Source: Planctomyces sp. SH-PL14 | Lineage (GTDB): Bacteria > Planctomycetota > Planctomycetia > Planctomycetales > Planctomycetaceae | Direction of reading: 5' to 3' | Assembly (NCBI RefSeq): GCF_001610835.1 | Contig: NZ_CP011270.1 | Location: 4,482,001 to 4,546,000, forward strand | Length of the DNA stretch: 64,000 nucleotides | In this document: one piece after another, positions 5,224-63,531 of the stretch | Layout of the letters: each line of letters begins with the position of its first letter | How positions within the stretch are numbered: the stretch's first letter is position 1 | Notes under the pieces: generated by a model | Database searches by the model: none | What the model saw: only the letters and a program-made list of their open reading frames with translations | What the model was told of the DNA's origin: nothing | Position numbers and translations under genes: made by a program

Positions 5224-6585
5224 ATGTTGCCACGCTATCAGTTCACCCGCCGGGGATGCCTGCAGGTCTCGGCCGCCGGTGTCCTGGGGACCGCTCTCGG
5301 ACGACCAGCCGCGGCGTCGACGGACCGGCCGCAGCGGGCCAAGTCGGTGATCCTGGTCCTGTGCAGCGGCGGACCGAGCCAGCTCGACACGGTCGATCCG
5401 AAGCCTGAGGCCCCCGCGGAAATCCGGGGCGAGTTCTCGACGATCGACACCACCCTCCCGGGTGTCCAGGTCTGCGAGCACCTCCCGCGGCTGGCCCAGA
5501 CGCTCGACCGCTGGACGATCCTCCGGACCCTCGTCCACAAGGAATACAACCACCTCCTGGCGACGCATGTCGCCCTGACCGGCCGGCCGACCCCGATCCC
5601 CCGCGGCGGCAGCGATCTCGACCGGGTCCAGTCGCGGTTCGACTTCCCGAACGTCGCCTCGTGCCTCGACTACGTCCGTCCGCGGAACGACGGCATTCCG
5701 TCGGGGGTGTCGCTCCCGAACTACTTCATTGAAGGCCCGCTCACGTGGCCCGGCCAGTACGCCGGGTTCATCGGGGCCAAGCACGACCCCTGGCAGATCA
5801 ACCAGGATCCGAACGATCCGAATTTCCGCGTCGAGGCCCTCTCGCTCCCGTCGGAAGTGACGGGCTCGCGGCTTGTCTCGCGGCGGCAACTCGTCGACAC
5901 GCTGACGAGCCTCGACGACCGGGATCTGGGAACCCGTCCGAAGCAGTACAAAGACCAGCAGGAGGTCGCGTTCTCGCTCCTGACCTCGGCCAAGGTGACG
6001 AAGGCGTTCGACATCGGCAGCGAGCCGGCGGAGGTCCGCGACCGCTATGGCCGGAACAAGTTCGGCCAGTCGCTCCTTCTCTCGCGGCGGCTCGTCGAGG
6101 CGGGTGTCCCGGTCATTCAGGCCGCGATGGGGATCGTCCAGACGTGGGACACCCACGTCGACAACTGGGGGCGCCTCAAGAACACGCTCCTGCCGCAGCT
6201 CGATCAGGGGCTGCAGGCGTTGATGGACGACCTCCACGCCACGGGCCGCATCGACGACACGATGGTCATCGTGATGGGCGAGTTCGGCCGGACCCCGAAG
6301 ATCTCGACGCTGCCGGGGTCGACGATCGCCGGGCGGGACCACTGGCCCAACGTCTACTCGGGCCTCTTTGCAGGGGCGGGGATCCGCGGCGGGCAGGTGA
6401 TCGGCACGAGCGACAGCATCGCCGCGTATCCGATCACGCGCGAATGGACCCCGGCGGACGTCCTGACGACGGTCTTCGACGCTCTCGGCGTCGATCATGA
6501 CGCGCACATCTCGGATCCGCTCGGGCGGCCGAACCGCTTGTGCAACGGCGAAGTGATTCGGCCGTTGTACGATGGGAGAGGCTGA
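5224..6585 (+). CDS. DUF1501 domain protein with Tat signal
   Basis: A 453-residue secreted protein of the DUF1501 family, abundant in planctomycetes and related to the alkaline-phosphatase/sulfatase fold. ATG 5224 is chosen because GGAAGGA lies just upstream and the twin-arginine signal then begins at residue 9 (TRRGCLQVSAAGVLGTAL). The frame extends to 5011 without support. Family features include LCSGGPSQLDTVDPKP near residue 45, a GEFGRTPKI segment near residue 355 and DHWPNVYSGLFAGAGIRGG just after it. DUF1501 genes usually sit next to a DUF1549/DUF1553 gene; here the only such gene is 5 kb away on the other strand. Biochemical role unknown. Confidence 0.85.
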   Translation: MLPRYQFTRRGCLQVSAAGVLGTALGRPAAASTDRPQRAKSVILVLCSGGPSQLDTVDPKPEAPAEIRGEFSTIDTTLPGVQVCEHLPRLAQTLDRWTILRTLVHKEYNHLLATHVALTGRPTPIPRGGSDLDRVQSRFDFPNVASCLDYVRPRNDGIPSGVSLPNYFIEGPLTWPGQYAGFIGAKHDPWQINQDPNDPNFRVEALSLPSEVTGSRLVSRRQLVDTLTSLDDRDLGTRPKQYKDQQEVAFSLLTSAKVTKAFDIGSEPAEVRDRYGRNKFGQSLLLSRRLVEAGVPVIQAAMGIVQTWDTHVDNWGRLKNTLLPQLDQGLQALMDDLHATGRIDDTMVIVMGEFGRTPKISTLPGSTIAGRDHWPNVYSGLFAGAGIRGGQVIGTSDSIAAYPITREWTPADVLTTVFDALGVDHDAHISDPLGRPNRLCNGEVIRPLYDGRG

Positions 6586-6740
6586 AGGCTGAAGGCGGAA
6601 GGTAGAGGGGAACAGAGTCCCTTCGGAACGGATGAGGCAAGGCATCGCAGGACACAGGCCCGCATCAAAGACGGAAGGGCGAGCCATAAGGCTCTTCTCT
6701 ACCTTCCGTCTTCAGCCTTAAGCCTTCCGCCTCTCCTCTC
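6577..6740. repeat. Palindromic element, stop-codon-associated family
   Basis: Two inverted arms frame this stretch. The left arm (6577-6614) has GGCTGAAGGCTGAAGGCGG and then GGTAGAGGGG. The right arm (6691-6740) is its reverse complement with few changes (CTCTACCTTCC, CTTCAGCC, TTAAGCCTTCCGCCTCTCC). The left arm overlaps the TGA of the DUF1501 gene and the right arm overlaps the stop codon of the converging small gene, so the element spans exactly from stop to stop. Related arms occur at 30011-30027, 36555-36599 and inside mnmG at 54726-54841. Confidence 0.75.
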
Positions 6741-6906
6741 ACGCTGCCTTCTGGTGCTGCTTGAGCACGTGATCGATGATCCGGCAGCCGGAGGTGAGGA
6801 GGATCCGCTTGACGTGCGGGTCTTCGGTCTTGGCGGCCTGCTTCTCGATCGAGTCCACCAGCTTGACGGCGGCGGAGAGGTGGATGGTGGACGATTCGGC
6901 AGACAT
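6739..6906 (-). CDS. Small conserved-looking protein, 55 residues
   Basis: The frame is open further upstream, but GGGAGGAATCCG immediately precedes ATG 6906 and gives a strong Shine-Dalgarno match. The 55-residue product (MSAESSTIHLSAAVKL at the start, CRIIDHVLKQHQKAA at the end) is soluble, basic towards the C-terminus and mostly helical by composition, with no signal peptide or known motif. It ends inside the palindromic element, converging on the DUF1501 gene. I do not recognise a family. The ribosome binding site and sensible amino-acid composition favour a real gene. Confidence 0.6.
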   Translation of the reverse strand: MSAESSTIHLSAAVKLVDSIEKQAAKTEDPHVKRILLTSGCRIIDHVLKQHQKAA

Positions 6907-7360
6907 CGGATTCCTCCCTGTTTTTGCAGCGGGCCAACGGAACATCCTGTCCGTGTTGCGCGGCCGGTAGGGAGGGAATCGTCTGGACAATCGTCCCCTC
7001 CGGACGATTTGGTCTCTCTCCCTCAGAGCCAGCCTCACCGCTCCAGTTTGCCTCGCTGGTGATTGCCTGTGTCTGCAGAATTCGCCGATTGTCTGTCGGA
7101 ATCGCAGTCCATCCGGGTCCAGGGGCACCCTGGTGGGGAGTGCAGAGGGGCAACGCCCCTTTGCCCGCCGGAGGCCCTCTCGTCGAGAGATGTCTGAAGG
7201 AGAGCGTGTCCAGGCGGGGACGACGTGTCGGATGCCCCCTCACCTAAGACGCGGGGATCGCAAAGCGAGCGTGGAGTCCTCAACGCCGGTTCCACAAAGC
7301 GATCGCCCGTTGTGTCCCACGGTTCCTCATGGAAGCGCCTCCGGCGGCAAGGGGTGACCC

Positions 7361-8876
7361 CCAACGCCGTTAACCCCGGTTGAGGAGCTTGAGTCTCCTG
7401 GCCTGGTCGATCTGCTGGGACGTGGCGTTGGTGATCTTTGGCGATCCCGCCGGCCGCTCCTTCTTCCTCCGTGTGTAGTCCCGGCTGGCCTTGTTCTTCC
7501 GCTCATACGGGTCGGTGACGGATTCACGCAGCATCGCGCACAGCGTCTGACCTCGAACAACGGGATGCCGGTAGTCCCGTATCAGTCGACGGAACGACCG
7601 CAAGACTCCCGCCATGCTGATTCGAGACAGCGGAACCTGGGCCTTCGCCAGTTCCACTGCAACCGACAGTCCCATGCCCCACAGGCCGACCAGCGACCAT
7701 TCGAGCTCGACCGCGGCATTCAGGGAGGACAGGCTGCGGAGTTTTCGTCGACCGAACGTCTGCTTCAGGGTTCGATAGAACAGTTCCACTCCCCAGCGTT
7801 TGCGGTACAGGTCCAGGACCGCCCGGTCGCTCAAGATCTTCGGGTCCCGGACGCTCGTGAGCAGAGAGATCGGAGATCTCGGTCCCTGGGCCACGATCAG
7901 CCGGAACACCAGAGGCGGATCGAGCCGTTTGGCGGCCTCGTCAGGCCAGACGTAGACGGTTCCTTGCGATTCCCGCACGAACCCCAGCTTCCGCAGAAGC
8001 TTGACGTTCGCTCCCACCCGAACCAGCAGATGCCGGCCGCTTCCCAGGACTTTCCGGGCGAAGTCATAGCCCACGAAGCCGGCGTCCGCCGTCATCAAGC
8101 TTCCCTCGGGCAGGTCCTGGAGCATCTGAAGGGCGTGTTCCCGCTCACTGCTGTCGGCGGGGCCGATCCGCCAGTCCCACGGAAGCCCCGTCCCGACATG
8201 GAACAAGGTCGTCAGCCACATCTGGGGAACGCGGGCCGCCTTGGCCCCGGCGGCTGTTCTCGTCCGTTGGCGGCGGTGGCGCCTCTTCCGGATCGATCTC
8301 TTGAACGACGGGGCATAGGCCGTCTCGTGGGACTGGGTGCGAGGGAGCTCCACTCGGCTGCCATCGACCCCGTAGACCACCAGACCGCAGGATTCCCACT
8401 GCCGGGGGAGCGTCTGGCGAATCCGCTTTCGGAGAGCCGTCGTGAGAAGATAGACCAGGGGAACGGTCCAGCGTCGGAGGAGCTTCATGAAGGCCTGGGA
8501 CGACCCGGCCAGAGGGCCGTGATGGGGGAACAGATGCGCCATCAGCCTGTGGGTCGTGACAAACCGTTCCTGCAGTGTCTGCTCATCGGACCAGGCCCAC
8601 AGAAGGGCGGCTCGAACCAACAGTGGTGGCGTCCACGTGCAGTCGTGCCGGAAGAGGATGGTCTTCCAGTCCGTCCCAGCCAGAAGCCATTGCAGAGCTT
8701 TCTCGAGATGCCGAGAATTGAGCGCAACATCCGGAGACAGGTCTTGATGCGGCATCCCCGAATCCTTTCGGGAGGGCGAAGTGGGTGGGTTTCAGTGTGA
8801 GAACCGAAGCGTCTCCACAACGCCATGTCGCATCAAGACTTTCTTTTTGAACACGAACCAGGGTTAACGGCGTTGG
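7361..8876 (-). mobile_element. IS4-type insertion sequence, copy 1
   Basis: A 1516-bp element with terminal inverted repeats CCAACGCCGTTAACCC followed by C/T and GGTT (20 of 21 match between ends). It is flanked by the 7-bp direct duplication GTGACCC at 7354-7360 and 8877-8883. A single transposase gene fills it. Its stop codon lies in one terminal repeat. It appears identical to the copies at 43035-44550 and 60453-61968, so all three probably transposed recently. Confidence 0.95.
7370..8755 (-). CDS. IS4-family DDE transposase (copy 1)
   Basis: A 461-residue transposase. The DDE catalytic acids are readable: D131 in VYGVDGSRVEL, D224 in LMTADAGFVGYDF and E324 in the C-terminal motif. That motif is YRKRWGVELFYRTLK and matches the IS4 signature Y-x2-R-x3-E-x6-K (Y317, R320, E324, K331) exactly. 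AAAGGA eight bases before ATG 8755 serves as ribosome binding site. A basic stretch at residues 152-167 (KRSIRKRRHRRQR) may contact DNA. The gene is intact and identical in product to the other two copies. It would cut at the terminal repeats and insert with a 7-bp stagger. Confidence 0.95.
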   Translation of the reverse strand: MPHQDLSPDVALNSRHLEKALQWLLAGTDWKTILFRHDCTWTPPLLVRAALLWAWSDEQTLQERFVTTHRLMAHLFPHHGPLAGSSQAFMKLLRRWTVPLVYLLTTALRKRIRQTLPRQWESCGLVVYGVDGSRVELPRTQSHETAYAPSFKRSIRKRRHRRQRTRTAAGAKAARVPQMWLTTLFHVGTGLPWDWRIGPADSSEREHALQMLQDLPEGSLMTADAGFVGYDFARKVLGSGRHLLVRVGANVKLLRKLGFVRESQGTVYVWPDEAAKRLDPPLVFRLIVAQGPRSPISLLTSVRDPKILSDRAVLDLYRKRWGVELFYRTLKQTFGRRKLRSLSSLNAAVELEWSLVGLWGMGLSVAVELAKAQVPLSRISMAGVLRSFRRLIRDYRHPVVRGQTLCAMLRESVTDPYERKNKASRDYTRRKKERPAGSPKITNATSQQIDQARRLKLLNRG

Positions 8877-9045
8877 GTGACCCCCTTGACCCCGGCTGCC
8901 GTCGCACGTTGGGTTTGAGGTGGCACAGCCGTGCCGGCAAGGACGTGCCACTCGGCCACTGTACGAAGCACAACGGCCCGATTATGGTCATACCACACAC
9001 TGCTTGGCCCTCCCCCCGCCCCGCTCGCCCACCACCCTCGCATCC

Positions 9046-16395: not shown

Positions 16396-16710
16396 CATCC
16401 TGCCGGCACGACTTCGATAGCTCAAACCCAACGTGCGACGGCCGCTGGGGTCAAGGGGGTCTCACCCCTTTGCCGCCGGAGGCACTTCCGTGAGGAACCG
16501 TGGTAAGCAACGGATGTCCCCTTTGTGGGACCGGCGCTGAGGACTCACCGCTCGCTCTGCAATCCCCGTGGGTTGGTGAGGGGGCATACGACATGGTGTC
16601 CGCGTTTTGGACACGTGCTCCTTCAGATACCTCTCGACGGCCAGGCCTCCGGCGGGCAAGGGGGTGTGACCCCCTTGCATCCCCCACCAGGGCGAGCCCC
16701 TGGACCCCGG
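16396..16710 (-). repeat. Hairpin repeat copy B
   Basis: A full reverse copy, from a degenerate CATCCTGCCGG end to CTGGACCCCGG. Hairpin B loop reads AAGGGGGTCTCACCCCTTT and hairpin A reads AAGGGGGTGTGACCCCCTT, so hairpin A here carries a different loop from most copies. It lies between the start of the BNR gene and the MerR promoter. Confidence 0.9.
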
Positions 16711-19877: not shown

Positions 19878-20018
19878 GGCGAACGTCCAGGTGGGATGTC
19901 AGCAGCCCGGTCAGACACAGGGCCGGTGGGAGGGCGCGAGCGGATCGCAACAACGCCTGCTGATCAGTGTCCTGAAGCGGCGAACGGGAGTCAACTTCGC
20001 GGTCGCTGTGTCGAACCA

Positions 20019-20260
20019 CGTCCTCGCCGGCGGAGGCTCTTTCATGAGGAACCGTGGGACACAACGGACGACCGCTTTGTGAAACCGGCGTCGAGAACTC
20101 CCCGCTCGCTCTGGAATCCCCACAGGTTGGTGAGGGGGCATACGGCACGTTGTCCGCGCTTGGACACGATCTCCTTCAGACATCTCTCGACGGCCAAGCC
20201 TCCGGCGGGCAAAGGGGCGTTGCCCCTCTGCACTCCCCACCAGGGTGCCCCTGGACCCGG
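20019..20260 (-). repeat. Hairpin repeat copy C, internally deleted
   Basis: A 242-bp reverse copy. The outer boundary CGTCCTCGCCGG is fused directly to CGGAGGC, so the tail (GTTGGGTTTGAG part) and hairpin B are missing. The break falls at the short identity GCCGG/GCCG shared by the two ends of the lost part, as expected for slippage or short-homology deletion. Hairpin A and the middle are intact, ending in CTGGACCCGG at 20260. Confidence 0.85.
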
Positions 20261-20272
20261 TTCAGGTCAGCA

Positions 20273-29056: not shown

Positions 29057-30010
29057 ATGCTGAACGCCGCTGCCGTTGCCGAGGGACACGCCCGGATCGA
29101 GCTTCTCCGCCGCAACCTCGCCTCGGTTATTCGCGGCAAAGTCGAGATCATCGACCTCCTGATCACCGCCCTCCTGGCCGGCGGCTCCGTCCTCCTCGAA
29201 GACGTCCCCGGAGTCGGCAAAACAACACTCGCCAAAGCCTTGGCGAAATCGCTCGACACTCAATTCCGCCGCGTCCAGTTCACCCCCGACCTGCTCCCGA
29301 CCGACATCCTCGGGGCCTCGATCTACAACCCCCGCGACGGCTCGTTCACGTTTCATCCGGGCCCCATCTTCAGCCACATCCTCCTGGCCGACGAGATCAA
29401 CCGCGCGTCGCCGCGAACCCAGTCGGCGCTCTTGGAAGCGATGAGCGAAGGGCAGGCGACCATCGAAGGGCACCGCCACCCCCTCCCCCACCCCTTCCTC
29501 GTCCTGGCGACCCAGAACCCGGTCGACTTCCACGGCACCTACCCGCTCCCCGAGGCGCAGCTCGACCGGTTCCTGCTGCACCTCAACATGGGCTACCCGG
29601 ACCAGAAGACCGAAGTCGACATCCTCTTCGCCCAGGCCCTCGAACCGCCGATCGATCACGTCGAGCCGGTCCTCTCGATCGCCGACGTCAGCCAGATGCA
29701 GGCCCAGGTCCGCGAGGTCCAGGTCGAACGGACCGTCGCGAACTACATCGTCGAGATCGTCCGGGAAACGCGGAAGCACCCCATGCTGAAGCTCGGCGTC
29801 AGCCCTCGCGGCTCGCTGATGCTCTTCCGCGCCGCCCAGGCGGCCGCCTTCACGGCGGAGCGGACGTTCGTCATGCCCGACGACGTCCAGCGGGTCGCCG
29901 TCCAGGTCCTCGCTCACCGGACGATGCTCTCGTCCAAAGCCAAGTACAGCGGCCTGACGGGCGACCAGGTGATGCGAGAGGTCATCTCGACGATCAAGGT
30001 GCCTGTGTAG
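29057..30010 (+). CDS. MoxR-family AAA+ ATPase
   Basis: A 317-residue AAA+ ATPase. Walker A is EDVPGVGKTTLAKALA (near residue 55), Walker B ILLADEINRAS (near 110), sensor 1 LATQNP (near 153) and an arginine-finger region follows (LPEAQLDRFLLHL). The C-terminal lid domain ends in HRTMLSSKAKYSGLTGDQV. MoxR ATPases act as chaperones that activate metalloenzymes or cell-envelope complexes and are normally followed by DUF58 and von Willebrand A genes. Here the next genes are unrelated and on the other strand, so this is an orphan. A half-arm of the palindromic family starts right after its stop codon. Confidence 0.9.
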   Translation: MLNAAAVAEGHARIELLRRNLASVIRGKVEIIDLLITALLAGGSVLLEDVPGVGKTTLAKALAKSLDTQFRRVQFTPDLLPTDILGASIYNPRDGSFTFHPGPIFSHILLADEINRASPRTQSALLEAMSEGQATIEGHRHPLPHPFLVLATQNPVDFHGTYPLPEAQLDRFLLHLNMGYPDQKTEVDILFAQALEPPIDHVEPVLSIADVSQMQAQVREVQVERTVANYIVEIVRETRKHPMLKLGVSPRGSLMLFRAAQAAAFTAERTFVMPDDVQRVAVQVLAHRTMLSSKAKYSGLTGDQVMREVISTIKVPV

Positions 30011-30027
30011 GGAGAGGCGGAAGGTAG
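30011..30027. repeat. Half-arm of the stop-codon palindromic family
   Basis: GGAGAGGCGGAAGGTAGA follows the TAG of the MoxR gene directly and matches the arm of the 6577-6740 element. No inverted partner is visible nearby, so this is a partial or decayed copy. Confidence 0.5.
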
Positions 30028-30135
30028 AGACCGCGCCGGTGCTGAGAGCGCTTGCCCGGTTGGTGCCGTTGTTGGTGATCTGGATCGTCGGGTTGAGCAC
30101 TGCGGAGCAAGCCAGCGGTTGCCCGGGCATTGTTT

Positions 30136-35614: not shown

Positions 35615-35950
35615 CGTCCTTGCCGGCACGGCTGTGCTCGCTCAAACCCAACGTGCTACGGCAGTTGGGGTCAAGGGGCCAGAAAAACAACACAGGCCCC
35701 CTTGCCGCCGGAGGCCGTTCCTATGAGGAACCTTTGTAAGCAACGGACGCCCCCTTTGTGGGACCCGCGTTGAGGACTCTTTCAAAGTCCACCGCTGGCG
35801 ATGCACTCCCCGCGTGTTGGTGAGGGGGCATCCGGCACGCTGTCCGCGCCTGGACACACCCTCCTTCAGACATCTCTCGACGAGAGGGCCTCCGGCGGGC
35901 AAAGGGGCGTTGCCCCCTTGCATCCCCCACCAGGGTGCCCCTGGACCCGG
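35615..35950 (-). repeat. Hairpin repeat copy F, long-loop hairpin B
   Basis: A full reverse copy. Hairpin B carries a long loop: GGGG-CCAGAAAAACAACACAGG-CCCC replaces the usual 3-6 base loop. The same 18 bases occur in copies J and M, and a variant in H. Hairpin A is standard. Confidence 0.9.
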
Positions 35951-36037
35951 TGGATCAGCGGCGCCGTGCATATCAGCGGCGAACCTTGCCGGTTTGCCCC
36001 GTGTCCCCACCCCACCCGTCGCGGGAGGGACTCAACC

Positions 36038-36409: not shown

Positions 36410-36554
36410 ACGGCCCCGCGACCACAAGCACCCCCAAACCCCACCCCAGAAACCAGAACACCCGGCCGGGACCACTGTCCCCACCGGGTGTCACTGTTTG
36501 AGCAGCACGCTTGAGCAACTCGGCGCCCGCAAAGCGGGCCACCAGATTCCGACC

Positions 36555-36599
36555 TTCAGCCTTCCGCCTTCAGTCTGAACCCCTCTCCCTCTACGCCTA
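36555..36599. repeat. Arm of the stop-codon palindromic family
   Basis: CTTCAGCCTTCCGCCTTCAG followed by CCCCTCTCCCTCTAC runs up to the TAG of the leftward gene ending at 36597. It is the same arm as at 6691-6740, again touching a stop codon. Confidence 0.55.
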
Positions 36600-37085
36600 C
36601 TTCTTCGCTTCGCGGAAGTCATACGTCGCCAGCGCCGTCAGCTCGCGCGGCGGAACACCGTTGCGGCGGTTCGAATACCCGAACCCATACACCGCCACCT
36701 TGCCGGTCGTCAGCTCGGCAATGAACACCCCTTCGAGCCCCGGGGGATCTCCGCCCGAACGGCCGGTCAGGAGCAGGTTCCCGGGACACATCACGAACGT
36801 TCCCGCTTCCGTCAGGCCAAAGTCCTGGGCAATGCTTCGGCCATAGGCCTGTGTGAACGCCCCGGCCTGGGCGTTGTAGGCGGCGCCGGTCAGCCGCCCG
36901 GTCACGTGATCGAGCACGAACACCGCGTCCGTGAATCCCGCCTGCGTCGCACACGTCGCAATCGAGAGCTTCTGATTGCTGTCCGCCGAGCCGGCGTAGG
37001 CTCGTTCTGCCGGCCAGTAGACGGAGATCATGGACCCCAACACCACACCGACCGCCACCCAACTGAGCTTCTGATTCGTGTTCAC
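36597..37085 (-). CDS. Exported hypothetical protein
   Basis: A 162-residue protein. AGGAG lies seven bases before GTG 37085, which begins VNTNQKLSWVAVGVVLGSM, a signal or anchor helix ending near AYA. An ATG at 37133 would add 16 residues without helping the signal. The mature part has two short repeated segments, IATCATQAGFTDAVFVLDHVTGRL and a later VAVYGFGYSNRRNG, suggesting a small beta-rich domain in which the product reports or stores a value-like series. The family is common in planctomycetes to my eye but unnamed. Function unknown. Confidence 0.65.
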   Translation of the reverse strand: MNTNQKLSWVAVGVVLGSMISVYWPAERAYAGSADSNQKLSIATCATQAGFTDAVFVLDHVTGRLTGAAYNAQAGAFTQAYGRSIAQDFGLTEAGTFVMCPGNLLLTGRSGGDPPGLEGVFIAELTTGKVAVYGFGYSNRRNGVPPRELTALATYDFREAKK

Positions 37086-40840: not shown

Positions 40841-42325
<1,485 letters not shown>

Positions 42326-42492
42326 GATGGGTTGAGCGTCGAGGGTTGAGCGTCGTGCGTTTGGAAACGAACGCCCCGCATCGCCTGCCATTCGAACGAA
42401 GATGCCCGCCGGAAAAGTCTTGAGGCCCTTGGCCGAAGTTTCCTACGCTCAGCGTTTCCCTATTTCACGCTCAACGCCCGTCGGAGTTCGCA
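42326..42492. repeat. Direct and inverted TTGAGCGTCGAG repeats between ffh and rpsP
   Basis: GGTTGAGCGTCGAG and GGTTGAGCGTCG lie in tandem right after the ffh stop, and partly inverted copies (CGCTCAGCG, CACGCTCAACG) end just before rpsP. A related GTTGAGTGTCGAGAGTTGAG follows the stop of the propeller gene at 63483. They could form a structure in the ffh-rpsP mRNA. Confidence 0.55.
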
Positions 42493-42914: not shown

Positions 42915-43034
42915 GCGCAGCGCGAATCTCCCGTCCGCTCTATGGAGACGGGAGGCAGACGAACCCGTCCTTGCCGGCACGGCGCTGTTAGCTCAAACTC
43001 AACGTGCGACGGCAGCCGGGGTCAAGGGGGGCAC

Positions 43035-44550
43035 CCAACGCCGTTAACCCCGGTTGAGGAGCTTGAGTCTCCTGGCCTGGTCGATCTGCTGGGACGTGGC
43101 GTTGGTGATCTTTGGCGATCCCGCCGGCCGCTCCTTCTTCCTCCGTGTGTAGTCCCGGCTGGCCTTGTTCTTCCGCTCATACGGGTCGGTGACGGATTCA
43201 CGCAGCATCGCGCACAGCGTCTGACCTCGAACAACGGGATGCCGGTAGTCCCGTATCAGTCGACGGAACGACCGCAAGACTCCCGCCATGCTGATTCGAG
43301 ACAGCGGAACCTGGGCCTTCGCCAGTTCCACTGCAACCGACAGTCCCATGCCCCACAGGCCGACCAGCGACCATTCGAGCTCGACCGCGGCATTCAGGGA
43401 GGACAGGCTGCGGAGTTTTCGTCGACCGAACGTCTGCTTCAGGGTTCGATAGAACAGTTCCACTCCCCAGCGTTTGCGGTACAGGTCCAGGACCGCCCGG
43501 TCGCTCAAGATCTTCGGGTCCCGGACGCTCGTGAGCAGAGAGATCGGAGATCTCGGTCCCTGGGCCACGATCAGCCGGAACACCAGAGGCGGATCGAGCC
43601 GTTTGGCGGCCTCGTCAGGCCAGACGTAGACGGTTCCTTGCGATTCCCGCACGAACCCCAGCTTCCGCAGAAGCTTGACGTTCGCTCCCACCCGAACCAG
43701 CAGATGCCGGCCGCTTCCCAGGACTTTCCGGGCGAAGTCATAGCCCACGAAGCCGGCGTCCGCCGTCATCAAGCTTCCCTCGGGCAGGTCCTGGAGCATC
43801 TGAAGGGCGTGTTCCCGCTCACTGCTGTCGGCGGGGCCGATCCGCCAGTCCCACGGAAGCCCCGTCCCGACATGGAACAAGGTCGTCAGCCACATCTGGG
43901 GAACGCGGGCCGCCTTGGCCCCGGCGGCTGTTCTCGTCCGTTGGCGGCGGTGGCGCCTCTTCCGGATCGATCTCTTGAACGACGGGGCATAGGCCGTCTC
44001 GTGGGACTGGGTGCGAGGGAGCTCCACTCGGCTGCCATCGACCCCGTAGACCACCAGACCGCAGGATTCCCACTGCCGGGGGAGCGTCTGGCGAATCCGC
44101 TTTCGGAGAGCCGTCGTGAGAAGATAGACCAGGGGAACGGTCCAGCGTCGGAGGAGCTTCATGAAGGCCTGGGACGACCCGGCCAGAGGGCCGTGATGGG
44201 GGAACAGATGCGCCATCAGCCTGTGGGTCGTGACAAACCGTTCCTGCAGTGTCTGCTCATCGGACCAGGCCCACAGAAGGGCGGCTCGAACCAACAGTGG
44301 TGGCGTCCACGTGCAGTCGTGCCGGAAGAGGATGGTCTTCCAGTCCGTCCCAGCCAGAAGCCATTGCAGAGCTTTCTCGAGATGCCGAGAATTGAGCGCA
44401 ACATCCGGAGACAGGTCTTGATGCGGCATCCCCGAATCCTTTCGGGAGGGCGAAGTGGGTGGGTTTCAGTGTGAGAACCGAAGCGTCTCCACAACGCCAT
44501 GTCGCATCAAGACTTTCTTTTTGAACACGAACCAGGGTTAACGGCGTTGG
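43035..44550 (-). mobile_element. IS4-type insertion sequence, copy 2
   Basis: 1516 bp, same terminal repeats as copy 1 and an identical transposase gene in the same orientation. Flanked by the 7-bp direct duplication GGGGCAC at 43028-43034 and 44551-44557. Relative to the repeat it lies in the opposite orientation from copies 1 and 3. Confidence 0.95.
43044..44429 (-). CDS. IS4-family DDE transposase (copy 2)
   Basis: 461 residues, identical in product to the genes at 7370-8755 and 60574-61959. All catalytic residues are intact (D131, D224, E324 with Y317, R320, K331). Its stop lies in the terminal repeat of the element, and AAAGGA precedes ATG 44429. Confidence 0.95.
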   Translation of the reverse strand: MPHQDLSPDVALNSRHLEKALQWLLAGTDWKTILFRHDCTWTPPLLVRAALLWAWSDEQTLQERFVTTHRLMAHLFPHHGPLAGSSQAFMKLLRRWTVPLVYLLTTALRKRIRQTLPRQWESCGLVVYGVDGSRVELPRTQSHETAYAPSFKRSIRKRRHRRQRTRTAAGAKAARVPQMWLTTLFHVGTGLPWDWRIGPADSSEREHALQMLQDLPEGSLMTADAGFVGYDFARKVLGSGRHLLVRVGANVKLLRKLGFVRESQGTVYVWPDEAAKRLDPPLVFRLIVAQGPRSPISLLTSVRDPKILSDRAVLDLYRKRWGVELFYRTLKQTFGRRKLRSLSSLNAAVELEWSLVGLWGMGLSVAVELAKAQVPLSRISMAGVLRSFRRLIRDYRHPVVRGQTLCAMLRESVTDPYERKNKASRDYTRRKKERPAGSPKITNATSQQIDQARRLKLLNRG

Positions 44551-44938
44551 GGGGCACCCCTTGCCGCCGGAGGCGCTTCCATGAGGAACCGTGGGACACA
44601 ACGCGCGTCTCCTTTGTGGACCGGCATTGAGGACTCCCTCCAACTAGACCGCTGGCTTTGCAGTCCCCACGTGTTGGTGAGGGGGCATACGACACGTCAT
44701 CCGCGCTTGGACACTCACTCCTTCAGACATCCCTCGACGGCCAGGCCTCCGGCGGGCAAGAGGGCCAAAGAAATAACACAGGCCCCCTTGCATCCCCCAC
44801 CAGGGGTGACCCCCTGGACCCCGGTATGAGGCACGATGGATCGTCCGTCGCCGCTGCGGACCATCGCCGCATTCGCATCACGGCCGCCTCCGGAATACAA
44901 CAGCATCTCGTGCTCCCCGAATCTCCGGAGACCGACCG

Positions 44939-53936: not shown

Positions 53937-54247
53937 CGTCCTCGTCGGCACGACTCCCATAGCTTAAGCCCAAGGTGCTACGGCCGCTGGGGTCAAGTTG
54001 GCTCACCCCCTTGCCGCCGGAGGCGCTTCCATGAGGAACCGTGGTAAGCAACGGACGCCCGCTTTGTGTCACCGGCGTTGAGGACTCCACGCTCGCTTCG
54101 TAGTCCCCGTGGGTTGGTGAGGGGGCATACGACACGTCGTCCGCGTCTGGACACTCACTCCTTCAGACAGTTCTCGACGGCCAGGCCTCCGGCGGGCAAA
54201 GGGGCGTTGCCCCTCTGCACTCCCCACCAGGGTGCCCCTGGACCCGG
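53937..54247 (-). repeat. Hairpin repeat copy K
   Basis: A full reverse copy with slightly degenerate ends (CGTCCTCGTCGG) and a mismatched hairpin B (CAAGTTGGCTCACCCCCTTG). Hairpin A is standard. It begins 10 bp after the TPR-protease stop. Confidence 0.9.
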
Positions 54248-54332
54248 TGAGGGCTGTGACTTCGGGTGAGCTGTTTCACCGGGGAGCGCGCCGGTAGACT
54301 TACGGGCTTGTGCTTGAACGAGAACGGTGAGA

Positions 54333-56252
54333 ATGAGCGGCTGCAGTTACGAATTCGACGTCGTGGTCATCGGGGCGGGACACGCCGGAATCGAGGCGGC
54401 CCTCGCGTCCGCACGGCTCGGAGCCCGCACCGCCTTCCTCACCATGAACTGCGACACCGTCGGCCAGATGAGCTGCAACCCAGCCATCGGCGGCGTTGCC
54501 AAGGGACAGATCGTCCGCGAAATCGACGCCCTCGGCGGCGAAATGGGGAAGTGCATCGACGCCACCGGCATCCAGTTCCGGATGCTCAACAGCGGCAAGG
54601 GGCCCGCCATGCACAGCCCCCGCGCCCAGGCCGACAAGAAGGCCTACCAGTTCCGCATGAAGGAAGTGGTCGAAAACGAGCCGAATCTGCACCTGCGACA
54701 GGAGATGGTCGAAGGCCTCCTGACGGAGGAGGCGGAAGGCGGAAGGCTTAAGGCGGAAGGTAGAGGGGAAGAGGCCGTGAACGGCCTCCCATCAGAGGCG
54801 CCGGACGCTGAGCTCCCCTCTTCTCTACCTTCAGCCTCCCGCCGCATTCGCGGCGTCGCCGTCCGCGGCGGCGCTGTCTACCGCTGCCGCGCCGTCATCG
54901 TCACGACCGGGACGTTTCTTCAGGCGATCATGCACACGGGAGAAGCGAAGACTCCCGGCGGACGCGCGGGGGACGGCACGACGGGGACGATGTCCGACAG
55001 CCTGCGGGACCTCGGCTTCGAGCTGGAGCGGTTCAAGACCGGCACCCCGTGCCGCCTCAACGGCCGGACGATCGACTTCTCCGTCCTCAAGGAACAGCCC
55101 GGCGACCCCGAGCCGACCCCCTTCTCGTTCCTGACCGACCGGATCGCGCAGCCGCAGATGTCCTGCTGGCTGACCGACACCAACCCTTACGTCCACGACC
55201 TGATCCGAGCCAACCTCCACCGGGCCCCGATGTACAGCGGTCAGATCCGCTCGACCGGCCCGCGGTACTGCCCGTCGATCGAGGACAAGGTGGTCCGGTT
55301 CGCCGACAAGGAATCGCACCAGATCTTCCTGGAGCCCGAAGGACGGAACACCTGGGAGTATTACTGCAACGGGATCTCGACCAGCCTGCCGCGGGACGTG
55401 CAGGACGAGCTCGTCCACTCGATCCAGGGGCTGGAAAAGGCCCAGATCATGCGGTACGGGTACGCCGTCGAGTACGACTTCGCGCCGCCGACGCAGCTCC
55501 ACGCGACGCTGGAAACGAAGCGTGTCGAAGGGCTCTACTTCGCCGGCCAGATCAACGGCACGACCGGCTACGAAGAAGCCGCGGGACAGGGGCTGATGGC
55601 GGGGATCAACGCGGCCCTCAAGCTGAAGGGGGAGCCGCCCCTGATCCTCGACCGCAACCAGGCCTACCTGGGGGTGTTGATCGACGACCTCGTGACCCGC
55701 GGCGTCGACGAGCCGTACCGGATGTTCACGTCGCGGGCCGAGTACCGGCTGCTGCTGCGGCAGGACAACGCCGACCGCCGCCTGACGCCGACCGGAGTTC
55801 GGATCGGCCTGGCGACGGAAGAGCGGCGGACGCGGCATGAGGCCTACGAAGAGGAACTGGCGCGAGGGCTGGCCTTCCTCCGGAAGACGCGGCACGAACA
55901 CGACACACTGGAGGCGTGGCTGCGGCGGCCGGAGATGACTTGGGACAGCCTGTGTCAGATGGCCCCGGCCGTGGGAGAGCTGGGGCTCAGCCCGCGGGCG
56001 GGCGAGCAGGTCCAGATCGAGGTGAAGTACGCTGGTTACGTCCAGCGGCAGGAGCTGGATGTGAAGCGGGCCGAGAAGGTCCAGGCAATGCGGATCCCCG
56101 AGACGTTCGACTTCCGGGCGATCCCGCAGCTCCGGGCCGAGGCGCGGGACAAGTTGAGCCGGGTCCAGCCGCGCGATGTCGGACAGGCGGGCCGGATCAG
56201 CGGCATTACGCCCGCGGACCTGGCGGTCGTGATGCTCTATCTCAAGAAGTGA
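54333..56252 (+). CDS. mnmG: tRNA uridine-5-carboxymethylaminomethyl modification enzyme MnmG (GidA), with in-frame insertion
   Basis: A 639-residue FAD enzyme that, with MnmE, modifies the wobble uridine of tRNAs. The FAD motif GAGHAG is at residues 14-19, followed by CDTVGQMSCNPAIGGVAKG and the FLEPEGRNTWEYYCNGIST segment near 335. Conserved GTTGYEEAAGQGLMAG and YRMFTSRAEYRLLLRQDNAD are present, and the C-terminal ISGITPADLAVVMLYLKK is complete. Residues about 132-170 are extra: VEGLLTE is followed by a Glu/Ser/Pro-rich insert encoded by a palindromic element, after which RRIRGVAVRGGAVYRCRAVIV resumes the family. MnmE is not in the window. Start chosen at ATG 54333 (GTG 54327 in frame). Confidence 0.96.
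   Translation: MSGCSYEFDVVVIGAGHAGIEAALASARLGARTAFLTMNCDTVGQMSCNPAIGGVAKGQIVREIDALGGEMGKCIDATGIQFRMLNSGKGPAMHSPRAQADKKAYQFRMKEVVENEPNLHLRQEMVEGLLTEEAEGGRLKAEGRGEEAVNGLPSEAPDAELPSSLPSASRRIRGVAVRGGAVYRCRAVIVTTGTFLQAIMHTGEAKTPGGRAGDGTTGTMSDSLRDLGFELERFKTGTPCRLNGRTIDFSVLKEQPGDPEPTPFSFLTDRIAQPQMSCWLTDTNPYVHDLIRANLHRAPMYSGQIRSTGPRYCPSIEDKVVRFADKESHQIFLEPEGRNTWEYYCNGISTSLPRDVQDELVHSIQGLEKAQIMRYGYAVEYDFAPPTQLHATLETKRVEGLYFAGQINGTTGYEEAAGQGLMAGINAALKLKGEPPLILDRNQAYLGVLIDDLVTRGVDEPYRMFTSRAEYRLLLRQDNADRRLTPTGVRIGLATEERRTRHEAYEEELARGLAFLRKTRHEHDTLEAWLRRPEMTWDSLCQMAPAVGELGLSPRAGEQVQIEVKYAGYVQRQELDVKRAEKVQAMRIPETFDFRAIPQLRAEARDKLSRVQPRDVGQAGRISGITPADLAVVMLYLKK
54726..54841. repeat. Palindromic element inside mnmG
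   Basis: The left arm GAGGCGGAAGGCGGAAGG...GGTAGAGGGGAAGAGG (54726-54772) and right arm CCCCTCTTCTCTACCTTCAG...CCTCCCGC (54815-54841) repeat the element at 6577-6740. It keeps the mnmG frame open, adding about 38 residues at a loop between beta-strands where relatives have only a few. Confidence 0.85.
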
Positions 56253-56770: not shown

Positions 56771-57093
56771 CGTCCTTGCCGGACGGACTCTGGTAGCTCA
56801 AACCCAACGTGCTACGGCCGCTGGGGTCAAGGGGGCCACGCCCCCTTGCCGCCGGAGGCACTTCCATGAGGAACCGTGGGACACAACGGATGTCCGCTTT
56901 GTGGAACCGGCGTTGAGGACTCCCTCAAAATACACCGCTCGCTTTGCAATCCCCGCGGGTTGGTGAGGGGGCATACGACACGTTGTCCGCGCTTGGATAC
57001 GCCCTCCTTCAGACATTCCCCGACGGCCAGGCCTCCGGCGGGCAAAGGGGCGTTGCCCCTCTGCACTCCCCACCAGGGTGCCCCTGGACCCGG
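56771..57093 (-). repeat. Hairpin repeat copy L
   Basis: A full reverse copy from CGTCCTTGCCGG to CTGGACCCGG. Hairpin B is CAAGGGGGCCACGCCCCCTTG. The middle contains an 11-bp insertion relative to copy B (CCTCAAAATACA region), which would shift any reading frame. Confidence 0.92.
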
Positions 57094-57147
57094 TCGGGAC
57101 GGAGAGCCCCCGTCGGACGTCTGCTCTCCCTTCAGCCTCTCCCACCA

Positions 57148-60337: not shown

Positions 60338-60452
60338 GGAGAAGATTAGAGCGTGTCTGGAACCGCCTTTCAGTCTCGAACCGCGTTCTAGCCGGCACGG
60401 CTGTGCCACCTCAAACCCAACGTGCCACGGCAGCCGGGGTCAAGGGGGCAAC

Positions 60453-61968
60453 CCAACGCCGTTAACCCTGGTTCGTGTTCAAAAAGAAAGTCTTGATGCG
60501 ACATGGCGTTGTGGAGACGCTTCGGTTCTCACACTGAAACCCACCCACTTCGCCCTCCCGAAAGGATTCGGGGATGCCGCATCAAGACCTGTCTCCGGAT
60601 GTTGCGCTCAATTCTCGGCATCTCGAGAAAGCTCTGCAATGGCTTCTGGCTGGGACGGACTGGAAGACCATCCTCTTCCGGCACGACTGCACGTGGACGC
60701 CACCACTGTTGGTTCGAGCCGCCCTTCTGTGGGCCTGGTCCGATGAGCAGACACTGCAGGAACGGTTTGTCACGACCCACAGGCTGATGGCGCATCTGTT
60801 CCCCCATCACGGCCCTCTGGCCGGGTCGTCCCAGGCCTTCATGAAGCTCCTCCGACGCTGGACCGTTCCCCTGGTCTATCTTCTCACGACGGCTCTCCGA
60901 AAGCGGATTCGCCAGACGCTCCCCCGGCAGTGGGAATCCTGCGGTCTGGTGGTCTACGGGGTCGATGGCAGCCGAGTGGAGCTCCCTCGCACCCAGTCCC
61001 ACGAGACGGCCTATGCCCCGTCGTTCAAGAGATCGATCCGGAAGAGGCGCCACCGCCGCCAACGGACGAGAACAGCCGCCGGGGCCAAGGCGGCCCGCGT
61101 TCCCCAGATGTGGCTGACGACCTTGTTCCATGTCGGGACGGGGCTTCCGTGGGACTGGCGGATCGGCCCCGCCGACAGCAGTGAGCGGGAACACGCCCTT
61201 CAGATGCTCCAGGACCTGCCCGAGGGAAGCTTGATGACGGCGGACGCCGGCTTCGTGGGCTATGACTTCGCCCGGAAAGTCCTGGGAAGCGGCCGGCATC
61301 TGCTGGTTCGGGTGGGAGCGAACGTCAAGCTTCTGCGGAAGCTGGGGTTCGTGCGGGAATCGCAAGGAACCGTCTACGTCTGGCCTGACGAGGCCGCCAA
61401 ACGGCTCGATCCGCCTCTGGTGTTCCGGCTGATCGTGGCCCAGGGACCGAGATCTCCGATCTCTCTGCTCACGAGCGTCCGGGACCCGAAGATCTTGAGC
61501 GACCGGGCGGTCCTGGACCTGTACCGCAAACGCTGGGGAGTGGAACTGTTCTATCGAACCCTGAAGCAGACGTTCGGTCGACGAAAACTCCGCAGCCTGT
61601 CCTCCCTGAATGCCGCGGTCGAGCTCGAATGGTCGCTGGTCGGCCTGTGGGGCATGGGACTGTCGGTTGCAGTGGAACTGGCGAAGGCCCAGGTTCCGCT
61701 GTCTCGAATCAGCATGGCGGGAGTCTTGCGGTCGTTCCGTCGACTGATACGGGACTACCGGCATCCCGTTGTTCGAGGTCAGACGCTGTGCGCGATGCTG
61801 CGTGAATCCGTCACCGACCCGTATGAGCGGAAGAACAAGGCCAGCCGGGACTACACACGGAGGAAGAAGGAGCGGCCGGCGGGATCGCCAAAGATCACCA
61901 ACGCCACGTCCCAGCAGATCGACCAGGCCAGGAGACTCAAGCTCCTCAACCGGGGTTAACGGCGTTGG
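60453..61968 (+). mobile_element. IS4-type insertion sequence, copy 3
   Basis: 1516 bp in the opposite window orientation to the other two, same terminal repeats, identical transposase product. Flanked by the 7-bp direct duplication GGGCAAC at 60446-60452 and 61969-61975. Confidence 0.95.
60574..61959 (+). CDS. IS4-family DDE transposase (copy 3)
   Basis: 461 residues, identical in product to copies 1 and 2, with intact D131, D224 and E324 and the Y-x2-R-x3-E-x6-K motif. The very long antisense frame across it (60529-63549) is a shadow. The gene reads away from holA. Confidence 0.95.
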   Translation: MPHQDLSPDVALNSRHLEKALQWLLAGTDWKTILFRHDCTWTPPLLVRAALLWAWSDEQTLQERFVTTHRLMAHLFPHHGPLAGSSQAFMKLLRRWTVPLVYLLTTALRKRIRQTLPRQWESCGLVVYGVDGSRVELPRTQSHETAYAPSFKRSIRKRRHRRQRTRTAAGAKAARVPQMWLTTLFHVGTGLPWDWRIGPADSSEREHALQMLQDLPEGSLMTADAGFVGYDFARKVLGSGRHLLVRVGANVKLLRKLGFVRESQGTVYVWPDEAAKRLDPPLVFRLIVAQGPRSPISLLTSVRDPKILSDRAVLDLYRKRWGVELFYRTLKQTFGRRKLRSLSSLNAAVELEWSLVGLWGMGLSVAVELAKAQVPLSRISMAGVLRSFRRLIRDYRHPVVRGQTLCAMLRESVTDPYERKNKASRDYTRRKKERPAGSPKITNATSQQIDQARRLKLLNRG

Positions 61969-62304
61969 GGGCAACCCCTTGCCGCCGGAGGCACTTCCAT
62001 GAGGAACCGTGGTAAACAACGGACGTCCGTTTTGTGGTACCGGCGTCGAGGATTCACCGCTCGCTCTGGACTTTCCGCGGGTTGGGTGAGGGGGCATCCG
62101 GCACGCTGTCCGCGCTTGGACACGCGCTCCTTCAGACATCTCTCGACGGCCAGGCCTCCGGCGGGCAAAGGGCCAGAAAAACAACACAGGCCCCTCTGCA
62201 CTCCCCACCATGGGTTCCCGCTGGACCCCGATATTCTTCGAGTTTGTCGCTCCACCGGATAGAATCACCACGGCACCCGAGTCACCATCCCTCCCGGTCC
62301 ACCT

Positions 62305-63483
62305 ATGCCCTTTCCGCGTCTCCACGCGATCTGCCTCACGCTCATCGCGTCGCTGGCTCCCCCCGGTCCCATCCACGCCCAGGAACCGGCCGCGAACTTC
62401 CAACCCGACTGGCCCAACTTCCGCAACGGCCCCGCCCTCCTCGGCGTGAGCAACACACCCCTCCCCCCCCAGTTCGAACTCCTCTGGGAATACCCCACCG
62501 TCGACGGCACCAACTCCACCCCCGCCATCGCCGACAGCCGCGTCTACATCGGAGCCCTCAGCGGCGACCTCCTCTGCCTCGACCTCGCCACCGGCAAGAA
62601 GGTCTGGAGCTACCACTCCATCGAGTCCAAGGACCCCAATGAATTCGCCCCCGGCTTCGCCGCCCCGATCGGCATCACGGCCGACCTCGCGATGGGAGGC
62701 GACGAAGACGGCGTCTTCCACGCCGTCGACCGCAAGACCGGCGAGAAGCGGTGGACGTTCAAGACCGGCACCATCATCAACGGCGGCCCGGCGATCTATC
62801 AGGACAGCGTCCTCGTCGGCTCCCGCGACGGAAAACTCTACCGCCTGAAACTCGCCACCGGCGAAAAGATGTGGGAGTTCGACGCCGGCGGCCCGGTCAA
62901 CGCCACCGCCACCATCGCCGGCCAGTTCACCTTCATGACCGGCTGCAGCGAGCCCTACCTCCTCGTCGTCGATCTCGAAACCGGCAAGCTCAGCAAGAAG
63001 ATCGCCATCGACGGCCGGATCATCGCCTCCATCGCCTTCAAGGACGGGATCCTCTACTTCGGAACGGCCGAAGGAAAGATCTGCGCCCTCGACTGGCAGA
63101 AGGGGGCCGGCGAGATGGTCTGGGCTCACGAAGTCGCCAACCAGGACCAGCAGATCGACTCCTCCCCCGCGGTCACGGAGAACGAGGTCGTCATCGGCGG
63201 ACCGGGGAAAATGATCCTGAGCCTCGACCGCAAGACGGGAAAGCCGCTCTGGACCTTCCCCTCGCGGGCCAAGTTCGAAGGCTCGCCGGTCGTGGCCGGA
63301 GACAAAGTCGCCGTCGGGGGCGTCGATCGGACGTTCTACGTCCTGACGCTCAAGGATGGCAAAGAGGTCTGGCGCTATGGCGCAGGACAGGCCTTCAAGG
63401 GTTCGGCGGCGGTCGGCGGCGGGCGGGTCGTCATCGGGACGGAGGCCGGGGACGGCCGCGTCCTGTGCTTCGGCAAGCGTTGA
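62305..63483 (+). CDS. Secreted PQQ-type beta-propeller protein (second)
   Basis: A 392-residue exported propeller with a signal peptide (LHAICLTLIASLAPPGPIHA). WPNFRNGPALLGVS follows as in other planctomycete PQQ-like proteins, then blade motifs (CLDLATGKKVWSYH, AVDRKTGEKRWTFKTG, RLKLATGEKMWEF, SLDRKTGKPLWTFPS, VLTLKDGKEVWRYG). The TGEKMWEFDAGGP type repeats resemble outer-membrane BamB more than the 48762 protein does. No catalytic residues of quinoprotein dehydrogenases are evident, so binding or scaffolding is more likely than redox activity. It ends 48 bp before the next gene and probably heads a transcription unit with it. Confidence 0.87.
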   Translation: MPFPRLHAICLTLIASLAPPGPIHAQEPAANFQPDWPNFRNGPALLGVSNTPLPPQFELLWEYPTVDGTNSTPAIADSRVYIGALSGDLLCLDLATGKKVWSYHSIESKDPNEFAPGFAAPIGITADLAMGGDEDGVFHAVDRKTGEKRWTFKTGTIINGGPAIYQDSVLVGSRDGKLYRLKLATGEKMWEFDAGGPVNATATIAGQFTFMTGCSEPYLLVVDLETGKLSKKIAIDGRIIASIAFKDGILYFGTAEGKICALDWQKGAGEMVWAHEVANQDQQIDSSPAVTENEVVIGGPGKMILSLDRKTGKPLWTFPSRAKFEGSPVVAGDKVAVGGVDRTFYVLTLKDGKEVWRYGAGQAFKGSAAVGGGRVVIGTEAGDGRVLCFGKR

Positions 63484-63531
63484 GTGTCGAGAGTTGAGCG
63501 GTAAGCGAAAGAAGGGGAGAGGAGCAGCGCG

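Follow-up and report, generated by a model that had tools for sequence, protein, structure and literature searches.

Several short repeats in the genome of Planctomyces sp. SH-PL14 lie at the ends of protein-coding genes, which raises the question whether their position is determined by the stop codon, by the 3' end of the mRNA or by the gene border itself. The window, a stretch of 64,000 nucleotides (NZ_CP011270.1, positions 4,482,001 to 4,546,000), had been described in an earlier note as carrying palindromic repeats located exactly at stop codons, which were suggested to be either selected as mRNA 3' ends or inserted preferentially at such sites.

Repeat copies in the window

The repeat unit is approximately 40 nt long and consists of a G-rich head, about four to five 7-nt repeats and a tail. 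In the arms of family A (AAGG heptads), the run of 7-nt units behind the G-rich head GGAGAGGCGG comprises AAGGCTT, AAGGCTG and AAGGCGG in variable order, with AAGGTAG as the last unit. Two such arms are located between convergent genes. The left arm (6574 to 6610, plus strand; identified by its sequence and a model match) follows a DUF1501 gene, the TGA of which (6583 to 6585) lies inside the arm. Since the Pfam match to DUF1501 extends to profile position 387 of 390 at residue 446 of 453, approximately the last three residues and the stop codon are supplied by the arm. The right arm (6694 to 6736, minus strand; model match of 49.8 bits) starts 2 nt past the stop codon (6739 to 6741) of the convergent minus-strand gene, for which no Pfam family was matched. 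The whole inverted-repeat spacer (6574 to 6742) is predicted to fold into a strong hairpin (MFE -87.4 kcal/mol, z -6.1 compared to dinucleotide shuffles).

A short single arm of family A (30011 to 30032, plus strand) is found directly 3' of the TAG (30008 to 30010) of a gene for a MoxR-type AAA ATPase (Pfam AAA_3, AAA_lid_2 and bpMoxR). It has three mismatches to the 17-nt core and is missing from the genome-wide model matches described below. Another single arm (36552 to 36589, minus strand; model match with E 0.0016) is separated by a short linker from the TAG (36597 to 36599) of a minus-strand gene without a matching Pfam family; the arm starts about 7 nt and the recognisable 7-nt units about 20 nt past this stop. 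The claim that the arm begins at or overlaps a stop codon in all three intergenic cases is thus correct for the convergent genes and the moxR gene and applies only loosely to the third case. The stops named for the two repeats of different sequence were confirmed as well. These heptads (family F, TTGAGCG/TCGAGGG), both detected by the heptad scan on the plus strand, start 5 nt past the TGA (42323 to 42325) of ffh (42331 to 42359) and overlap the TGA (63481 to 63483) of a PQQ/beta-propeller gene (63477 to 63505; Pfam Beta-prop_ACSF4 and PQQ_2). The former repeat precedes the gene for ribosomal protein S16, and the names of both neighbours are supported by Pfam (SRP54 and Ribosomal_S16).

An arm pair of family A (54729 to 54836, plus strand), recognised by its sequence, is located in frame within a gene which we take from its sequence to be mnmG (gidA). 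Compared to 15 aligned relatives (picked from 80), the copy lengthens a variable loop in frame, the stretch being longer than in the relatives. One of the relatives (L206) appears to have an insertion of its own at this site, and extra repeat-like residues are found there in other planctomycetes as well (L206 and L208), perhaps an insertion-tolerant loop that was used repeatedly.

The term palindromic fits the spacer at 6574 to 6742 and, as judged by sequence, the mnmG copy, the fold of which reaches a z of only -0.9. It does not fit the repeats at 30011, 42331 and 63477, for which no significant fold was obtained, while the copy at 36552 forms a small hairpin (36540 to 36600; modest, z -2.3). 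Altogether, a strong hairpin was found in one out of six folded copies, and four copies had neither a strong nor a modest one. No Rfam family was matched in the window at gathering scores, and a tRNA scan of the window gave no hit. The window also harbors three copies of an insertion sequence (7157 to 8945, 43026 to 44559 and 60384 to 62172), which are 98-100% identical; the first copy, the one tested, encodes a DDE transposase (PF01609), and two of the copies share about 250 nt beyond the third.

Genome-wide placement of family-A arms

A sequence model made from 20 arms was used to search the genome (a single contig of 8.44 Mb). It gave 125 matches at E <=0.1, 119 of which were retained below E 0.01; with 150 of 6771 candidates scored by the search tool, the genome contains at least 119 copies. 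They are dense between 2.0 and 6.7 Mb (101 of 119 versus 66 expected, p 1e-11, with limits picked after inspection of the list). The placement analysis covered 83 of the 119 copies, those with flanking DNA. Genes were called with a purpose-written codon-model script, the start calls of which are rough, so that distances to starts are approximate. The first base matched by the model served as the reference point for distances, and for partial matches the true head lies further out. Most copies (76 of 83) are intergenic. Among the seven copies within called genes, there is one case in which the gene ends in the arm and one in which the arm is located at a called start; from the remaining five, mnmG alone was compared with homologues and is in frame.

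The arm outer edge was found within 10 nt of a stop codon in 28 of the 76 intergenic copies. Random placement in the same spacers and in either orientation (20,000 placements) gave a mean of 3.2 stop-adjacent copies and a maximum of 12, which bears out the bias toward stops. More than half of the 83 copies had been chosen by matching the repeat, but the evenly spaced tiles, the unbiased part of the sample, gave 11 stop-adjacent copies out of 25 on their own. The adjacency of the repeat to stop codons is therefore confirmed as genuine and extends beyond the window. Among the 28 type-I arms that face a stop, 23 lie within 10 nt of it (median 1.5). Of all 54 type-I arms, 22 are more than 20 nt away from any called border, start calls being rough. 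Twenty-two arms form a subtype with GGGTTCAG that appears to be embedded in a larger repeat; only five of them are located within 10 nt of a stop.

Units that carry TGA, TAA or TAG in shifting phase might simply supply the stop to any gene running into them. Stops are contained in AAGGCTGAAGG, CTTAAGG and GGTAGAG and also in some variants of family B, and genes end inside a repeat at 6583 to 6585 and 63481 to 63483 as well as at genome places 5708401 and 5841743, the stop being inside family-A units in three of these cases (6583 to 6585 and the latter two). At 5841743, a short called gene runs approximately 38 nt into the arm; since arms entered by a gene over more than half their length were counted as inside a gene, this copy, the one such case, fell into that class. 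GTAG REPs are likewise reported to give TAG to flanking genes (PMC3733652). If genes had run into the repeat, however, most stops would be expected deeper in the arm. In 26 of the 28 stop-adjacent arms, the stop falls outside the model match or no more than 4 nt into it. This refutes stop supply as the main cause, and as an explanation of the placement it is highly improbable.

Family-A arms were also found near start codons (8 of 76 within 20 nt, 4 of 76 within 10 nt). The units at start borders point outward from the gene as those at stop borders do, which means that their orientation relative to transcription is reversed. Overall, the head edge is nearer to the gene than the tail edge in 68 of 76 copies; a single copy has its tail edge 20 nt or less from a gene border. 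Stop borders exceed start borders among these arms (30 versus 8), and convergent spacers, which represent 277 of 1548 spacers, hold 18 of the 38 border arms. Separate 7-nt units at both borders were detected in eight spacers (0.9 expected; a non-coding position drawn at random has a probability of 0.0007 of being within 8 nt of both borders). Both units belong to family A in four of these, where strong pairing is possible (z -4.9 to -6.2). The other four combine different families (A and D twice, A and the AAGTATC family twice) and show no pairing (z -0.6 to 1.3). Since mixed-family borders occur without pairing, the palindrome is not essential, and the single outward-pointing unit is.

This bears on the possibility that the repeat is an ordinary palindromic mobile element of the REP or MITE type, the two arms being the ends of one inserted element. 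Facing family-A pairs are present in 10 of the 65 spacers holding any analysed family-A arm, and also in the mnmG copy, and REPs elsewhere are reported within 20 bp of 3' ends (PMC3733652). In the ten spacers with facing pairs, both arms lie within 10 nt of a gene in four cases, one arm in three and neither in three. An inverted family-A partner is absent for 18 of the 28 stop arms and present for 10, most arms being single rather than parts of the short imperfect palindrome typical of REPs, and four of the eight two-border spacers have different, non-complementary families. A target-site duplication, as would accompany the terminal inverted repeats of a MITE, was not found; flanking direct repeats of the analysed copies were no longer (mean 2.73) than those obtained with shuffled flanks (mean 3.00). 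Y1 (RAYT) transposases, the sole transposase type sought near the arms, are encoded at 6246572 and 2097753 (PF01797), and both genes are kilobases away from any listed arm (nearest ones at about 6 kb and 52 kb). The mixed-family borders and the absent duplications weaken this reading, which we regard as very unlikely.

An mRNA 3'-end element, i.e. selection at stops for units or hairpins with a role in transcription termination or in the protection of 3' ends, would agree with the excess of stop over start borders, with the share of border arms in convergent spacers and with the strong hairpin at 6574 to 6742. In Xanthomonas, transcripts are reported to start or stop in G4-forming heptads above control rate (PMC4692102). 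The median fold z compared to shuffles was also lower at arm-bearing stops (-1.85) than at 60 non-repeat controls (-0.68), so that a weak excess of structure past arm-bearing stops is possible. On the other hand, the mean fold energy of the 150 nt past stops is similar for 28 arm-bearing (-62.0 kcal/mol), 200 non-repeat (-60.5 kcal/mol) and 150 other-repeat stops (-65.4 kcal/mol), the inverted partner is present for no more than 10 of 28 stop arms, and one out of six window copies folds strongly. A strong hairpin was thus rejected as a general property, with the reservation of the lower median z. Moreover, the families have neither a sequence nor a fold in common, and the same units are present at starts, where their orientation to the gene is unchanged but that to transcription is reversed, so that the 3'-end reading is not supported in general. 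We consider it unlikely. From the two interpretations offered by the earlier note, preferential insertion is compatible with the data, while selection as mRNA 3' ends is not supported as the general reason.

Period 7, dispersed repeats and a possible explanation

Tandem repeats with a 7-nt period are concentrated in non-coding DNA, with 9.25 per 100 kb in intergenic, 0.37 in coding and 0.10 in shuffled sequence (period scan at a lax threshold, the first threshold having been too strict). When 1523 stop edges and 1589 start edges were scanned for any period, period 7 was detected at 46 stop and 25 start edges. Other periods were found at one to seven edges, with the exception of the harmonic 14 (25 stop and 16 start edges) and of period 10 at stops. 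The latter is also enriched (11 edges), and ACACCAAG-type and ATCTGTGTTCATCTGTGGC repeats start shortly past stops. A slightly lower threshold gave 82 period-7 gene edges, 63 of which were assigned to word families including AAGGNNN, TCAGTNN, GGGNCNA, AGGANNN, TTGAGNG and AAGTATC and 19 of which carry no label; the labels derive from a crude word count, and at least two rows are mislabelled. The genome contains at least six heptad families, family A being one of them. In the labelled families, the units have a single direction, outward from the gene, whether they follow a stop or, on the opposite strand, precede a start. Many of these families open, as judged by eye, with a GGGGAG-like head directly at the border.

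Crowding past stop codons is also observed for dispersed repeats in general. In spacers of at least 200 nt, repeats cover 25% of the first 5 nt past stops and 44% by 25 nt, compared to 1-2% over the first 40 nt before starts. A dispersed repeat of approximately 330 bp, found in the window at 16463 to 16707, 20017 to 20261, 35707 to 35951, 54004 to 54248 and 56850 to 57094 and in many other spacers, often ends within about 30 nt past stops. Small hairpins of this repeat seem, by eye, to retain pairing while the letters differ between copies. As located by its end motifs, its gap sums in convergent spacers have a median of 69.5 nt compared to 75.5 nt in repeat-free ones, and in tandem spacers it lies at a median distance of 23 nt from the stop and 141 nt from the start. 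These gaps are as expected from insertion anywhere outside genes and leaders, and the crowding of dispersed repeats at stops mostly reflects places where insertion is tolerated.

Tolerance might account for the heptads as well: repeats would insert anywhere and survive where they are harmless, the DNA past stops being free and about 100 bp before starts not. The gaps of the 330-bp repeat and the low repeat coverage before starts agree with this, as does the BLAST coverage of all repeats including family A, which puts the median gap past stops at 6 nt (at most 10 nt in 61% of 202 tandem cases). With this measure the contrast to the heptads is smaller and partly measure-dependent. The heptad units are nevertheless tighter than the large repeat, since 23 of 28 lie within 10 nt of the stop compared to 97 of 355 by raw motif (median 23, p 7e-9) or to 128 of 355 (median 19, p 1.5e-5) when the second end of the large repeat is shifted out by 10 nt to where conservation fades. 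They also abut starts, a random non-coding position falls within 8 nt of a stop with a probability of 0.032, and tolerance gives no reason for single units to be strictly polar. As dispersed repeats crowd past stops and avoid about 100 bp before starts, part of the stop bias is ordinary tolerance; as the whole explanation for the heptads, tolerance seems doubtful.

The period of 7 nt, the position, the outward polarity, the occurrence in several families and the presence at both gene ends are observed features of the units, and their placement appears to be set at the gene border on the DNA. The explanation to which we lean, albeit with somewhat less than even confidence, is directional copying or insertion favouring gene borders combined with purifying selection against copies in genes. 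The unit head would lie against the border of a coding sequence, pointing away from it, after stops and less often just before starts, and the border at the level of DNA rather than the mRNA 3' end would set the position. Purifying selection would clear most copies that land in genes. Counting against this explanation are the absence of a flanking duplication and of Y1 genes near the arms, the type-I arms distant from called borders, the smaller contrast by BLAST coverage and the weak stop adjacency in named public loci (see below). A copying step, e.g. polymerase slippage, may set the 7-nt period, as suggested by the constancy of this period across unrelated sequences. That placement is directed, rather than the outcome of selection after random insertion, and that copying is involved, we infer from these features; the data are compatible with selection after insertion, too.

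Related repeats in other genomes

Outside SH-PL14, matches to the family-A model were found in 6 of the 58 relatives returned, which did not include a genome of the same genus; most of them (11) are in one genome of another genus of the family (G007), the loci of which also hold a GAATGAC heptad pair. Inverted pairs of heptads with other words (GAATGAC, TAATTGG and TGAAGGA) are located in L194 (10905 to 11000) and L202 (13185 to 13250), both from G007, and in L220 (3124 to 3257) and L276 (2673 to 2747) of other planctomycetes. In 56 planctomycete loci, period 7 was detected in 29 segments from 14 loci, compared to two to five segments for periods 5, 8, 10 and 11, eight for period 13 and 24 for the harmonic 14. 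Another 24 loci, which their titles, read by hand, placed in other or unclear phyla, gave 13 segments in seven loci for period 7 and two to four segments for periods 5, 8, 10 and 11. Stop adjacency in the named public loci is weak (8 of 23 intergenic segments versus 5.2 expected, p 0.054), a crude gene caller having placed the other 19 of 42 segments inside ORFs. Among 294 planctomycete genomes, 31 contain TCAGT heptads compared to about 26 for the backward control (368 versus 89 matches), and 10 contain the AAGG word compared to about 8; the control figures and the numbers of matches are hand counts. Words shared throughout the phylum were discarded, as they are barely above the backward controls and the sharing of TCAGT is weakly specific at best.

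A search of the open-licence literature gave no paper on heptad repeats at planctomycete gene borders. Among the systems described elsewhere, the GTAG/CGTC REPs are reported as intergenic, most convergent copies being no more than 20 bp from a 3' end, with termini that often supply TAG and with occasional copies inside genes (PMC3733652, 2013); palindromic elements of the Rickettsia type within protein genes are mentioned in the same paper. The units described here are likewise intergenic and near 3' ends, may supply the stop and are sometimes found in genes. REPs, as described there, are small palindromes with a tetranucleotide tag, whereas the arms in SH-PL14 are mostly unpaired and directional runs of heptads.

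A resemblance is also seen to the TAACTGA heptads of Beggiatoaceae, cyanobacteria and Bacteroidetes, which are reported to contain stops in all frames and to be commonest 1 nt before the start (PMC4679880, 2015). Their word is similar to that of family B (ACTGANN), and the polarity is the same at the one clear start border. In that report they are mainly found before starts and mostly as one word, while those described here lie mainly past stops, have variable units and include some inverted pairs.

The intergenic 7-nt repeats of Xanthomonas (GGGAATC) and Nostoc (GGGGA(C/T)T), for which four units are reported to be preferred (PMC4692102, 2015), share the period, both positions at gene borders and the polarity. 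According to this source they lie 0-50 bp from the stop on the coding strand and from the start on the non-coding strand, sometimes overlap the stop and are under-represented between divergent genes. The arrangement of family A is the same (28 of 76 within 10 nt of a stop, 4 of 76 within 10 nt of a start), and the 7-nt period is likewise concentrated in non-coding DNA. The published repeats consist of one kind of word that forms G-quadruplexes, whereas SH-PL14 carries at least six families. As judged by eye, arrays with four G3+ tracts are not the general case here: family D has such tracts, units of family A have GG tracts and families B and G have none. Since the units of families B and G contain no G tracts, a quadruplex cannot be the reason common to all families.

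A more far-reaching idea, which we put forward as a long shot, is that genes may carry directional border marks, i.e. period-7 units of diverse sequence, head-first at both gene ends and pointing outward, which would derive from border-aware copying or be kept as fences at the DNA level. If so, the repeats of Xanthomonas, Nostoc, Beggiatoa and planctomycetes would be one phenomenon with interchangeable words. Compared to the published heptads, the new feature is that several families exist side by side in one genome. Unrelated families with a common period, position and polarity weaken sequence-specific answers such as a G-quadruplex, one binding protein or stop supply, and a genome with many families points to a common process behind the 7-nt period and the position at gene ends.
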